Shown one piece after another: positions 29,698 to 36,893 of a stretch of 64,000 bases of DNA. The stretch's first letter is position 1. Each line of letters begins with the position of its first letter. The notes under the pieces were generated by a model that worked only from the letters and a program-made list of their open reading frames with translations, did not search any database and had not been told where the DNA came from. The stretch lies in NCBI RefSeq assembly GCF_003752175.1, contig NZ_RJVF01000013.1:124001-188000 (forward strand). The letters are read 5' to 3'. Position numbers and translations under genes: made by a program. This DNA is from Comamonas sp. BIGb0124. GTDB lineage: Bacteria > Pseudomonadota > Gammaproteobacteria > Burkholderiales > Burkholderiaceae_C.

Positions 29698-30705
29698 TTA
29701 CTCCAGCGACAGGCCGGCTGCCTTGATCACTTCCTCGAAGCGTTTGCTCTCGGCGGCCATGAACACCTTGAACTCTTCGGGGGTCGGCGCGTACTGAACA
29801 TATCCAAATGTCTGGAATTTCTCTTTGACATCGGGTCCGGAAAGCGCGGCCTGCACATCGGTGCGCAGCTTTCTTTGCACTTCGGCCGGCGTTCCGGGGC
29901 GGACGGCAAATGCGTTCCAGCCCGTGACGAAATAGTTGGCCGGTCCTCCGGACTCTGCCACCGTGGGAACATTCTCGTAGCCCGGCAGACGCTCAGGCGC
30001 GGCGATCGCCAGCAGCCGAAGTTTGCCTGCTCGCACCATCGGTCCGGCGGTGCCGCTCGAGCCCAGCGCGAAGTCGAGTTCGCCATTGGCCACGCCTTGG
30101 TAGAGCTGGCTGGTTTCCTTGTAGATCACATGCTCCATTTTGGTCCCGGTCATTTTCTCGAGCAGGGCCGAGCCGAGATGGACGGGGTTGCCGACCGACC
30201 ATGAGCCGTAGTTCAACTTGCCGGGGTTGGCTTTTGCGGCGGCGATCAGATCGCCGACCGACTGATAGGGGCTGTTGACCGGGACGCACACAAAAAAATA
30301 CGTGCGGAACAACGGCGTGATGATTTCGAAATCCTTCTGGACATCGTAAGGCAGCTTCTTGAACAGATGGGGGTAAGCCGCGAGATGCACGTTGTCGAGC
30401 TGGATGATGTCGGTTCCATCCGTCGCGCCTTGCTTGAACGCCGCGATCGCGATGAAGCCATTGCCTCCGGGGCGGTTCTCGACGACGACCGATTGATTCC
30501 AGGTCCGAGAAAGCTTGTCGGCGACCAGTCGGGCGACGCCGTCCGGGCCTCCGCCCACCGGGAACGGATTGATGATCCTCACGGGCTTGACGGGCCAATT
30601 CGCCGAGCCCGATTGTGCAAAGGCGGGTGCTGCCACACCGGTTGCCAACAGCCCCATGGCCATGGCCAGGTGTCGACGCTTCATGTTCACGCTGTCATTC
30701 CTCAT
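29698..30705 (-). CDS. Bug-family tripartite tricarboxylate transporter receptor
   Basis: A 335-aa periplasmic binding protein. The signal peptide (LAMAMGLLATGVAAPAFA) is followed by WPVKPVRIINPFPVGGGPDGVARLVADKLS, the opening of Bordetella-uptake-gene (Bug/TctC) receptors, and by NRPGGNGFIA. These capture organic acids for TctAB. Betaproteobacteria carry many orphan Bug genes and this is one: no tctA/tctB lies next to it. I start at MRNDSVN, with GAGGGG upstream; a start seven codons later is possible. It is divergent from the tannase-family gene and shares its promoter region. Confidence 0.9.
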   Translation of the reverse strand: MRNDSVNMKRRHLAMAMGLLATGVAAPAFAQSGSANWPVKPVRIINPFPVGGGPDGVARLVADKLSRTWNQSVVVENRPGGNGFIAIAAFKQGATDGTDIIQLDNVHLAAYPHLFKKLPYDVQKDFEIITPLFRTYFFVCVPVNSPYQSVGDLIAAAKANPGKLNYGSWSVGNPVHLGSALLEKMTGTKMEHVIYKETSQLYQGVANGELDFALGSSGTAGPMVRAGKLRLLAIAAPERLPGYENVPTVAESGGPANYFVTGWNAFAVRPGTPAEVQRKLRTDVQAALSGPDVKEKFQTFGYVQYAPTPEEFKVFMAAESKRFEEVIKAAGLSLE

Positions 30706-30846
30706 AAAACCCCTCGTCAGTGATGTGTTTGTCGTGCGTTCCTCGGCCACCCCGGCCGAAGCGACGCCCGTGTCGTTGAGCTAGCGGAATGATGGAACAG
30801 GTGTGGGCTCTGGCGTCTACTGGTTACTACGGGAGTGGCGATTCTT

Positions 30847-32733: not shown

Positions 32734-32752
32734 AAGGCACGCTGCGGACCTG

Positions 32753-32772
32753 ACGCATCACTGATGATGCGT
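32753..32772 (+). terminator. Hairpin just after the tannase-family gene
   Basis: An 8-bp perfect stem ACGCATCA/TGATGCGT with loop CTGA, 20 bases after the stop, followed by GGGTTTG. It is weaker than the next hairpin. Confidence 0.4.
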
Positions 32773-32848
32773 TGGGTTTGCGCGCAGTCCCGAGATGGAG
32801 GTGATGCCTCTCGGGGATGAAGAGTCGGCTTGGTGAGGCTGAAAATGG

Positions 32849-32882
32849 ACGCCCGGTGAGTAGCCTCATCGGGCGTTTGCAA
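32849..32882 (+). terminator. Strong terminator-like hairpin
   Basis: ACGCCCGGTGAG/CTCATCGGGCGT form 12 pairs (one G-U) around a TAGC loop, followed by TTGCAATTCT. It is well placed to end the tannase-family transcript before the AT-rich region preceding hxsB. Confidence 0.65.
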
Positions 32883-33087
32883 TTCTGTATAGGAATCTTT
32901 TCATCTTCACGAGATTGAATCCTATTTTCTTAAAAATCTAAATCCCCAATCCATCCTTACATCCTCCTGACAGTTGATGAACCTCGTGCGACAACGGGTG
33001 AGCACGAATACAGCTGTAGCCGATTCCATGTCAGGATGATTCAGTACAGGACAAACAAGTGTTTCAAACACGGGTCGGGAGGATGAG

Positions 33088-34545
33088 GTGGGGATTTACG
33101 CAGTCGAGGTCTTGCCGTTTTGGAAACGGCCATTGGGAGACGACTGGCTGGCAGTCAGCGGCTCGGGTGACCATGTTTTCTTATCGGGACCTGAAGTCGA
33201 AACACTGAACAAAGGGTGCGTCAGCGAATTGCCGCTGGCATTGCAAGCCACGCTCAAATCCCGCTTCTTCACAGCGAGCACCGATACTCCAGGCACGCGG
33301 CGGCTCCTCAATTCAAGACGGGCGGCACGTCGAGAAACGGTCACTGCGGGCCCCAGTCTGCATATTCTTGTTCCCACTCTGCAGTGTGCGCATTCGTGCC
33401 AGTATTGCCAAGTCAGCCGTTCATTGCACGATACCGGCCACACGATGACTCGTGAAGATTTGCATGCCGCTTGTGATCGAATTTTCGACAGTCAATCGCC
33501 AACGCTGACGATCGAATTTCAGGGCGGGGACCCGCTGCTGCGCTTTGATCTGGTGCGGGAAGCCATCGAGCGGATCCAGATTAAAAACCGTCATGAGGGA
33601 CGACTGCTGCGATTTGTGGTGGCTTCGACGTTGCATCAACTTGACGACGCCATGTGTGCCTACTTTCGCGAGCACGGCGTTGTACTGTCCACCAGCGTGG
33701 ATGGTCCGGCGTCACTGCATAACCGTAATCGGCCCCTCCCGGGGCGCGATGCGTACGAGCGCACTTTGGCGGGCATCGAGAGAGCGCGGCGCTGGATGGG
33801 TCACGATGCCGTTTCAGCGCTGATGACGACAACCAAGGCATCATTGGCGCACCCCGAGGCGATCGTCGACGAGTACGTACGGCTGGGCTTTGCCGAGATC
33901 TTTTTGCGTCCACTCAGCAGCTATGGCTTTGCCAAGCGCAATCAGGCCTTACTGGGTTATCGACCCGCTCAGTTCGAGACTTTCTACCGCCGAGCTTTTG
34001 AGCGCGTACTTCACTGGAACCGTCAGGGTGTGCCGCTACGAGAAGTCTATGCGTCCATCATTCTCAACAAGATTCTCTCGCCATTCGACAGCGGCTATGT
34101 CGACCTGCAAAGTCCGACAGGGGCGGGTCAAAGCGTACTGGTCTACAACTACGACGGTTACGTCTATCCAAGTGATGAAGCACGCATGCTGGCTGAATCG
34201 GGAGACATTTCGCTGCGTTTGGGGCCCATTGGTACGCCGCTGGCCGAGCTTCAACAGTCCGCCGTTCAACAGGCATTGATTGAGGCCAGTCAAGTCGAGC
34301 GGGTCGATGACTGCCGAACGTGCGCCTTCCAGAGCTACTGTGCGCCCAACCCGGTCGACGCACAGGCGCAATTTGGTCGACTGGACACACCGGCCCTGGA
34401 AACCGAGCACTGCCAACGACACCAGTGGCTGTTCGATTTCTTCTTCGATGCAGTACGTCAGGCTGACGAGGATCGCTTGGATCTATTTCATGCGTGGGCC
34501 AGGCCCACATCGTCCCCCGAGCAGGAGACCTTATGCGACGCATGA
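33088..34545 (+). CDS. hxsB: His-Xaa-Ser system radical SAM maturase HxsB
   Basis: A 485-aa radical SAM/SPASM-type enzyme. The N-terminal 85 residues start with VLPFWKRPLGDDWLAVSGSGDHVFLSG, the leader-recognition-like part of HxsB. The 4Fe-4S-SAM motif is C100-x3-C104-x2-C107, the GGDPLLRFDL motif follows, and a C-terminal auxiliary cluster region includes C409, C412 and C418. It should modify the His-Xaa-Ser repeats of HxsA. The start is a GTG with GGGAGGATGA before it. The gene overlaps hxsC by 13 bases, so hxsB-hxsC-hxsA form one unit. Confidence 0.88.
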   Translation: MGIYAVEVLPFWKRPLGDDWLAVSGSGDHVFLSGPEVETLNKGCVSELPLALQATLKSRFFTASTDTPGTRRLLNSRRAARRETVTAGPSLHILVPTLQCAHSCQYCQVSRSLHDTGHTMTREDLHAACDRIFDSQSPTLTIEFQGGDPLLRFDLVREAIERIQIKNRHEGRLLRFVVASTLHQLDDAMCAYFREHGVVLSTSVDGPASLHNRNRPLPGRDAYERTLAGIERARRWMGHDAVSALMTTTKASLAHPEAIVDEYVRLGFAEIFLRPLSSYGFAKRNQALLGYRPAQFETFYRRAFERVLHWNRQGVPLREVYASIILNKILSPFDSGYVDLQSPTGAGQSVLVYNYDGYVYPSDEARMLAESGDISLRLGPIGTPLAELQQSAVQQALIEASQVERVDDCRTCAFQSYCAPNPVDAQAQFGRLDTPALETEHCQRHQWLFDFFFDAVRQADEDRLDLFHAWARPTSSPEQETLCDA

Positions 34546-35669
34546 GTGCAAGCTTTGGAAGCCGAGTGCAGAACGAAGACATTTGGCGCGTGGTATCAAT
34601 TGAAACTCTCGCAGCCCAATGGCAATCGGATCTGCAGTTTCTGGTCAAGGTCACCCGTGACAGTGACCGGAAGCACGTCCACCAACTTCAGGCTGCAGGT
34701 CTTGGCAATGTCGAATGGATGGATGCCTGCGATACCGAGATTGGCGACGTGGTAGTCACCACACCCCATCGATCGCAAGCAGCGGTGCTTTACCGCCCAA
34801 GCGACCTTCACCATGGCTTGCAACTCACGAATCGGTGCAACAGCAACTGCCTGATGTGCTCTCAACCCCCGACGCCGCAAGCTGACGACTGGATGGTTCG
34901 TGAGGCTGTCGAGGTCATTCGCCACATGGGCAGTTCCCCGCCGGTACTGGGACTCACAGGTGGAGAGCCCTTGCTCTTAGGCGAGGGTCTGCGTGAGGTT
35001 CTCGATCATGTGCATGAATGTCACCCGAGCACTCGGGTCGAGATTTTGAGCAACGGCCGCTTGCTTGCCAATGCCCCTCTGTGCAAAGCCGTTGTGGATG
35101 GATTGCAGACACCGACCACATGGTTGGTGCCACTGTATGGCCACGTCGATTTTTTGCACGATTTTGTTGTGCAAGCCCATGGCGCATTCGAGCAGACGCT
35201 TGCGGGGCTGCTCAATCTCCAGCAACACCGCCAGCCGATTCAGTTGCGTATCGTCTTGATCAAGCCAGTGCTGGATGTTTTGCCGGAGCTGTGTACTTTC
35301 ATTGGTCGCAACCTGCCATTCGTCAAAGAGGTCGCCCTCATGGCTTGCGAGCCTATCGGCTTTGCGCTGGCCAACCGGGAGTTGTGCGAGGTTGACCTGG
35401 CGGACTGGCAGGGCACGTTGGAACAAGCCGCTCGCCAACTGAAACGGCATTCCGTTCCCTTTCTCTTCATGAACACGCCGCTTTGCGCACTGCCGACGGA
35501 TCTTCATGGGCACGCTCACCGAAGCATCTCGGACTGGAAAAACGTCTACACGCCAGTCTGTGAACCTTGCCAGCTCAAACCGGACTGCGCCGGCTTTTTT
35601 GCTTGGCATGAGCGAGGCTGGAAACCCGCCAAAACCATCCCCATTACGCGCGAGGAGTACACGGCATGA
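34533..35669 (+). CDS. hxsC: His-Xaa-Ser system radical SAM maturase HxsC
   Basis: A 378-aa radical SAM enzyme. The cluster motif is C102-x3-C106-x2-C109 (NRCNSNCLMCS), the SAM-contact motif is GLTGGEPLL, and the C-terminus has a second cysteine group CEPCQLKPDC (343-352), as in HxsC. The ATG with AGGAG five or six bases upstream is inside hxsB; another ATG lies three codons later. It acts with HxsB on the repeat protein encoded next, whose start overlaps this stop (ATGA). The chemical modification is not known from sequence. Confidence 0.88.
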   Translation: MRRMSASFGSRVQNEDIWRVVSIETLAAQWQSDLQFLVKVTRDSDRKHVHQLQAAGLGNVEWMDACDTEIGDVVVTTPHRSQAAVLYRPSDLHHGLQLTNRCNSNCLMCSQPPTPQADDWMVREAVEVIRHMGSSPPVLGLTGGEPLLLGEGLREVLDHVHECHPSTRVEILSNGRLLANAPLCKAVVDGLQTPTTWLVPLYGHVDFLHDFVVQAHGAFEQTLAGLLNLQQHRQPIQLRIVLIKPVLDVLPELCTFIGRNLPFVKEVALMACEPIGFALANRELCEVDLADWQGTLEQAARQLKRHSVPFLFMNTPLCALPTDLHGHAHRSISDWKNVYTPVCEPCQLKPDCAGFFAWHERGWKPAKTIPITREEYTA

Positions 35670-36379
35670 GCCGTTTCATCAAAAACATCGGCCTGTTTCT
35701 GGCCAGTATCACCCCGTTGGCCGGGAGCAAGACTGCCGATGCAGCCATTCCGGCCTCTGAACTGGCACTCAATGCACTCAACGAGCCGCAGGCTGTGCCG
35801 TTGCGTCCCCTGAACTTCGAGCACGACAACCTGTTCGCGGGTCATCGGTCACATTCCAGCCATCGATCTCACTCCAGTCACAGCTCACATTACTCGGGAT
35901 CAAGCGGCCGTTCCTCGTATTACTCCTCACCTGCGCCCTCGCCTGCCCCCAGCTACAGCGCGCCGAGGTCGTCTCCAACGCCTGCCCCCGCACCTTCTCG
36001 TTCTTCTTCGTCGACAGCGGCGGGCACCGCCAGCAATCTCTTGGGTTCGCCGTCGCGCCCACTGGCTCCATCGCCGAATCCGTCTTCGACAACTGTCCAG
36101 CCTGCAACGACATCCAGTGCCACATCCGCCAAAGGCGCTACGGCAGTTGGACAAGGCGATGGGGTCGAGATGAACCGCACGGAGAAGCTCAAACTGCAAA
36201 TCATGAGGGTGCAAATCAAGCTTCTGTCGGTAGGACTTTATGACGGACCGGCCAACGGCGTGATGACGCCCCAGACCGTCGAGGCGCTGAAACGGTTCCA
36301 GATCGTTAAATCGCTGCCTGCAAATGGGCTGATGTCGACGGAGACGATGAACGCGTTGGGCATCACGGCAGTCAGGTAA
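35666..36379 (+). CDS. hxsA: His-Xaa-Ser repeat protein HxsA with peptidoglycan-binding domain
   Basis: A 237-aa substrate protein. An N-terminal hydrophobic segment (FIKNIGLFLASITPLAG) is probably an export signal. Residues 60-77 are six uninterrupted His-Xaa-Ser triplets, followed by a Ser/Tyr patch and a long Pro/Ser/Ala-rich linker (about 88-165). Residues 172-236 form a peptidoglycan-binding domain type 1 (RVQIKLLSVGLYDGPANGVMTPQTVEALKRFQ). The modified repeat is thus likely displayed in the cell wall space. It follows hxsC with a four-base overlap. Confidence 0.88.
   Translation: MSRFIKNIGLFLASITPLAGSKTADAAIPASELALNALNEPQAVPLRPLNFEHDNLFAGHRSHSSHRSHSSHSSHYSGSSGRSSYYSSPAPSPAPSYSAPRSSPTPAPAPSRSSSSTAAGTASNLLGSPSRPLAPSPNPSSTTVQPATTSSATSAKGATAVGQGDGVEMNRTEKLKLQIMRVQIKLLSVGLYDGPANGVMTPQTVEALKRFQIVKSLPANGLMSTETMNALGITAVR
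35843..35896 (+). repeat. Six His-Xaa-Ser codon triplets in hxsA
   Basis: The coding repeat translates to HRS-HSS-HRS-HSS-HSS-HYS. The codons (cat/cac, tcg/tca/tcc/tct) vary, so selection acts on the peptide rather than on DNA repeats. Confidence 0.85.
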
Positions 36380-36464: not shown

Positions 36465-36893
36465 ATGGCCCGCAAATCATCCAAAGTTCAAGGAACTCTC
36501 ATCGCAGCGGCGGCAGTCATAGGTTTACCTATCTATGGCGCCTCGAAAGTCATCGACTCTTCGGGCTGGGCAATTCCACTCTTGGCGATGTTGGGGCTGG
36601 TAGTGGCGATTGCGCTGTACAAATACAACAAAAAGCACAAGCGCCTCACCTACCTTAGAGGCAAATACAAAGACGAAACAACTGTGCAGAAAATTTACGC
36701 TGGCTATTTCTGGGAAGGTCAGACTGCCGAGCAACTGTTGGACTCGCTGGGACGTCCTGAGTCGGTAGACAACAAATTACTAAAGACCAAGATCAAGGAA
36801 GTCTGGAAGTACAACCGGCAGGGTGTCAATCGCTATGGACTCAGGATCACTGTTGAAAATGGCCACGTCGCAGGATGGGACAAAAAATCATAG
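36465..36893 (+). CDS. Two-helix membrane protein with BamE/SmpA-like tail
   Basis: 142 aa. Two membrane helices (about 10-28 and 35-53) are followed by a basic loop KYNKKHKR and a C-terminal domain reading GYFWEGQTAEQLLDSLGRPESVDN...KEVWKYNRQGVNRYGLRITVENGHVAGW. The pattern of G-T-EQ-LLDSLG-P and a later W-Y plus GHV--W resembles SmpA/BamE-like modules. Function is unknown. It lies 85 bases after hxsA on the same strand, so it may belong to the unit, but it is not HxsD. Base composition is lower in GC than neighbours. Confidence 0.65.
   Translation: MARKSSKVQGTLIAAAAVIGLPIYGASKVIDSSGWAIPLLAMLGLVVAIALYKYNKKHKRLTYLRGKYKDETTVQKIYAGYFWEGQTAEQLLDSLGRPESVDNKLLKTKIKEVWKYNRQGVNRYGLRITVENGHVAGWDKKS

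Follow-up and report, generated by a model that had tools for sequence, protein, structure and literature searches.

An hxsB-hxsC-hxsA maturation operon without a recognisable hxsD

The operon and its encoded proteins

The window, i.e. the whole stretch of 64,000 nucleotides analysed here, carries three genes of a His-Xaa-Ser (Hxs) maturation system on its forward strand. hxsB (33088..34545) starts with GTG and encodes a radical SAM/SPASM maturase of 485 aa (TIGR03978, 520 bits, cut-off 370), hxsC (34533..35669) encodes a second radical SAM maturase (TIGR03977, 336 bits, cut-off 268) and hxsA (35666..36379) a substrate protein of 237 aa (TIGR03979, 153 bits, cut-off 122). As an earlier note on this DNA had described, all three genes are complete, each lying above its curated NCBIfam cut-off in the profile search, and they overlap. 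The first possible start of hxsC is a GTG at 34494, and its ATG codons at 34533 and 34542 both lie within the 3' end of hxsB, while the ATG of hxsA at 35666 overlaps the stop codon of hxsC (35667-35669). In HxsB, the CxxxCxxC motif at residues 100/104/107 and the cysteines 409, 412, 418 and 442 were invariant among 45 sequences.

Compared to four relatives (L045-L048), third codon positions were the most diverged ones in all three genes, with values against L045 of 0.27/0.16/0.60 for hxsB, 0.27/0.16/0.60 for hxsC and 0.32/0.22/0.67 for hxsA over the three codon positions. Since such a pattern is expected of working genes, hxsB, hxsC and hxsA look to be under purifying selection. The G+C content of the operon stretch is 0.53-0.58 compared to 0.58-0.67 in the left and 0.62-0.73 in the right flank, and hxsB was absent from the one other genome of the same genus that was compared. 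Both observations make a horizontal acquisition likely, and the operon was probably gained by this route. An empty operon site could not be demonstrated in the same-genus genome; its aldolase is located on contig 78 and its tannase relatives on other contigs, hence the flanking neighbourhood is not conserved. Downstream of hxsA, a 142-aa protein with a membrane-like N-terminus is encoded at 36465-36893, for which no family was found above cut-off.

HxsA has an N-terminus that appears signal-like by eye. Based on motif counts in the clade of the window's HxsB (described below), residues 46-58 (35801..35839, forward strand) comprise the conserved leader motif LRPLNFEHDNLFA, and this block, LRPLN-x4-DNLFA, sits just before the repeats. 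The repeat block spans residues 60-77 (35843..35896, forward strand) and consists of six consecutive triplets, HRS HSS HRS HSS HSS HYS, the number given in the earlier note. A peptidoglycan-binding domain follows at residues 179-231 (36200..36358, forward strand; PF01471, 36.8 bits, cut-off 23). The strict leader motif was present in 14 of 16 HxsA frames of the clade and in none of 77 others, 31 of which showed a looser form; as the motif was written from the clade sequences, these counts describe the clade and are not an independent test. Two loci are not included in them, since no hxsA was recognised in their fetched stretch (L053 and L104), and L106 has no HXS frame.

The AlphaFold2 model of HxsB (pLDDT 91.4) begins with a domain of three strands followed by three helices at about residues 9-81 (33112..33330, forward strand). 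CteB (5wgg) aligns with the model from residue 9 (Z 33.8, 399 aligned residues, rmsd 3.8) and TigE (8vpo) from residue 2 (Z 26.2, 385 aligned residues, rmsd 4.3), whereas the anaerobic sulfatase maturase anSME aligns only from residue 88. Both CteB and TigE are radical SAM/SPASM peptide maturases whose N-terminal domains are leader-binding RREs. Judged by the order of strands and helices in the model and by these two alignments, the predicted N-terminal domain of HxsB is an RRE-like fold. The likeness to CteB and TigE comprises the N-terminal, radical SAM and SPASM parts over nearly the whole model, whereas the substrates differ and the identity to HxsB is 18% for CteB and 13% for TigE. According to PMC7470986, an RRE takes up the leader peptide between its third helix and its third strand; in that description the strands come after the helices, opposite to the HxsB model, and Hxs proteins are not mentioned.

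Search for HxsD in the locus and in the genome

HxsD is commonly listed as the fourth Hxs component. hxsA to hxsD are listed together for one genome in PMC8446631, and according to PMC9062424 the maturation of proteins containing the motif putatively depends on HxsB and HxsC. The window shares the maturases, the repeat protein and the order hxsB-hxsC-hxsA with the four-gene system (HxsA-D; TIGR03979, TIGR03978, TIGR03977 and TIGR03976). It differs in the clade-specific leader of HxsA and in the missing hxsD upstream of hxsB.

The gap upstream of hxsB (32734..33087, forward strand), which is the position of HxsD in relatives, contains no HxsD-like frame. The statement of the earlier note that no frame longer than about 20 residues occurs there has to be corrected, since a frame of 49 aa at 33059-33208 overlaps hxsB and a stop-to-stop frame of 50 codons extends over 32934-33083; neither of them was among the best HxsD-like scores. 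RNA folding predicted strong consecutive hairpins at 32734-32900, 3' of a tannase-like gene (-83 kcal/mol, z -6.8). This stretch matched no Rfam family at the gathering score and is single-copy in the genome. A decayed hxsD in the gap was rejected accordingly, as these hairpins make up its first 167 bases.

The whole genome (completeness 99.5%, 16 contigs) was searched with four profiles. TIGR03976 found no match even at E<=10, and neither the 'HxsD-like' model NF038315 nor a profile built from 39 HxsDs found one at E<=1. A profile of divergent HxsDs (see below) gave a best E of only 0.89, inside a frame of 314 codons on another contig. HxsD is thus missing from the locus and undetected in the genome as far as these profiles can see, which bears out what the earlier note had seen and answers the genome search it had proposed. 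Neither was HxsD found fused into the maturases: all 12 comparisons of the N-terminal regions of the window's HxsB and HxsC with both HxsD profiles reached a probability of at most 9.1%. These N-terminal parts do not resemble HxsD, and loci with and without HxsD have them in common as homologous regions (95.8-99.9% probability); the approximately 100 N-terminal residues of the window's HxsC match those of HxsD-positive loci with an hhalign probability of 98%. Since HxsB of HxsD-positive systems has a homologous N-terminal domain, the presence of this domain is not enough to render HxsD superfluous.

Altogether, HxsB, HxsC and an HxsA with tandem HXS triplets were found and the small protein HxsD was not, which is why the locus is filed as a variant and not as a complete four-gene system; the operon is a reduced variant of the known Hxs system. 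HxsA2-type systems share the HxsB and HxsC families and the His-x-Ser repeats with the window. Their short precursor is located upstream of hxsD, whereas in the window the maturase genes are followed by the gene of a long HxsA that has a peptidoglycan-binding domain. HxsD is present in all 14 surveyed loci in which the repeats end a short upstream precursor, so that in this survey only loci with long HxsAs show losses.

Distribution of HxsD among hxs loci

The survey comprised 96 hxsB loci, namely the window, five loci from other genomes, ten from 410 plasmid records and, out of 564 confirmed hxsB loci in GTDB species genomes, the best 80; the sample leans towards the window's HxsB. Among the 410 plasmid records with HxsB relatives, 316 are from Klebsiella and 326 are predicted to be conjugative. 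With an iterated HxsD profile, HxsD was detected beside hxsB in 69 of the 96 loci, just upstream of it in each case, and not in the remaining 27. As the contig of L074 starts just before hxsB, this locus was excluded from the HxsD counts, which leaves 95 scorable loci. On the level of whole genomes, TIGR03976 matched 30 of 54 at E<=6.1e-8. Of the 24 without such a match (best 0.058), six are alphaproteobacterial, and the rest are the window genome and 17 further members of its clade.

The window belongs to a clade of 18 HxsB loci (SH-aLRT 100), all HxsD-negative by profile, in which the locus of Achromobacter insuavis (L045, 73% identity) is closest to it. In half of these loci (L048, L051-L054, L057, L058, L060 and L104) a small frame of 90-143 codons is coupled to hxsB, ending at or overlapping its start, while the other nine (the window, L045, L046, L047, L049, L050, L055, L056 and L059) have no such frame. 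Since L051 and L052 are identical, eight coupled frames were grouped instead of nine. This group matched the HxsD profile with a probability of 91% and a score of 37.9, whereas 100 groups of randomly chosen small frames reached at most 13.2. Scores of 23-30 were obtained with four smaller groups from which L054, L058 and L060 had been left out. Singly, the frames reached hhalign probabilities of 0.1-79%, with L048 and L052 near zero, and these weak matches indicate that some of them may not be HxsD. As a group, the coupled frames probably represent a very divergent HxsD. The NCBI HxsD model matched none of nine divergent proteins, two of which are from viral contigs.

A faster evolution of HxsD in the clade is supported by a single pair, L052 and L053, in which HxsB shares 66.9% but HxsD only 28.6% identity, compared to 33.6-55.8% for HxsD in 106 other pairs with an HxsB identity of 65-75%. 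The close pair L058 and L060 (HxsB 96.0%, HxsD 84.3%) says little on this rate. Pairwise identity was rejected as a proof of homology for the divergent HxsDs because unrelated small frames reached 30 +/- 13% in free-end alignments. Two members of the clade carry broken maturase genes. In an uncultured Halomonas (L053:7277-13432) hxsC is split by about 4.8 kb with a Tn3-family transposase (PF01526), and in Halopseudomonas pelagia CL-AP6 (L104:5950-7412) hxsB lies in two overlapping frames, due to a frameshift or an assembly error. The HxsA leader motif is present in clade members with and without HxsD and does not itself explain the loss.

HxsD was lacking in 17 of the 95 scorable loci from at least three lineages, including eight alphaproteobacterial ones (L036, L068, L085, L094, L114, L116, L118 and L119). 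The 17 loci have 64 upstream frames, none of which was HxsD-like clearly above the controls. One such frame, in L047, scored 18.2, while the controls reached up to 17.0 and 16.1 (150 controls each); this frame, which was dropped, is the end of a frame of 444 codons that appears metallopeptidase-like by eye. The divergent-HxsD profile found nothing credible in 16 HxsD-negative genomes. In the tree of HxsB and HxsC, from which L104 was left out for its frameshift (and L037 from alignment A1), the absence of HxsD needs six state changes, of which at least three are forced by well-supported (starred) branches. With the tree read as unrooted, gain and loss can be told apart only by the presence of the divergent HxsDs. 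The comparison of gene order suggested in the earlier note thus revealed an HxsD-less layout common to the window and relatives, and its absence from 17 of 95 loci speaks against HxsD as a defining component of Hxs systems.

Possible role of HxsD and explanations for its absence

The predicted fold of HxsD comprises strand, helix, two strands and a long helix (pLDDT 90.7). Tried as a second RRE, the model gave no match at E<=0.001 in the PDB, and the best Z of 7.3 is at the level of a common arrangement. On a viral contig from IMG/VR (L163:2617-4425), one continuous frame of 603 codons joins a divergent HxsD-like region to HxsB, and by eye no in-frame start codon lies between this region and the HxsB domain. 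If it is not a sequencing error, this fusion suggests that HxsD acts on HxsB. Another viral contig (L162) keeps its divergent HxsD separate from HxsB. In total, 18 HxsB relatives were found on IMG/VR viral contigs (L162-L179).

The explanation we consider fairly probable from the comparison of sequences is a working hxsB-hxsC-hxsA core operon in a clade whose HxsD became very divergent and was then lost in part of the members. The relatives without HxsD likewise suggest that it is not always needed, and it is most likely dispensable in the lineage of the window. Among the options named in the earlier note, dispensability accordingly fits best, whereas the four profile searches lend no support to a location elsewhere in the genome, nor does the comparison of neighbouring genes to a replacement. 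In such a system, the RRE-like domain of HxsB would hold the HxsA leader LRPLN-x4-DNLFA, the His-Xaa-Ser triplets would be modified by HxsB and HxsC within the cytoplasm, and HxsA would afterwards be exported to the cell wall and bind peptidoglycan via its C-terminal domain. HxsD would be an accessory subunit working on HxsB, dispensable for the HxsB/HxsA pair of this clade. A more far-reaching version, which we hold only tentatively and regard as doubtful, is that HxsB of the clade took over the task of this accessory subunit, fused to HxsB in at least one relative, with its N-terminal domain recognising the HxsA leader, resulting in a minimal three-component Hxs system.

An HxsD could be too divergent for any profile and encoded elsewhere in the window genome, or be present as a very small frame, and still be required. 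The extreme divergence of HxsD in the clade, with none of nine such proteins matched by the NCBI model and no credible TIGR03976 match in the genomes carrying them, is in line with this. Nonetheless, we judge it improbable, since HxsD was found just upstream of hxsB in all 69 profile-positive loci, while the divergent-HxsD profile in the 16 HxsD-negative genomes and the 64 upstream frames yielded no clear candidate. It is also quite improbable that the operon is a decaying, non-functional relic from which HxsD has already disappeared: three intact, overlapping genes with conserved catalytic cysteines, a divergence biased to third positions in all of them and the same HxsD-less layout in nine clade loci speak against this, even though the lower G+C content and the absence from one same-genus genome suggest a mobile, dispensable gain and broken copies exist in relatives (the transposase in hxsC of L053, the two hxsB frames of L104). 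The locus may still be non-productive and not yet decayed.

A replacement of HxsD by the 142-aa protein at 36465-36893 is suggested by its position directly downstream of hxsA, in the same direction and inside the stretch of low G+C. It is very improbable in view of the missing family match, and because the protein had no counterpart in the other 25 loci when the frames of 26 loci (18 from the clade and eight alphaproteobacterial) were clustered. This clustering revealed no HxsD-replacing neighbour at all: besides hxsB, hxsC and hxsA, the window shared with other loci only frames that overlap these genes, plus an antisense frame at 30001-30780 (on the other strand of the gene at 29698-30750), whose sole match was in L046.

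The founding paper on the His-Xaa-Ser system is that of Haft and Basu from 2011. A full-text literature search, in which that paper was not covered, found no report of HxsD-less operons and no description of the Hxs chemistry or of the role of HxsD. An annotation that demands HxsD misses whole lineages, and the NCBI HxsD model misses divergent members. The role of HxsD becomes directly testable when HxsD-less loci are compared with relatives in which it is still present in divergent or fused form, and the natural HxsD-less operons would offer a simpler starting point for reconstitution. If true, a three-component Hxs system would allow HXS chemistry to be studied without HxsD.
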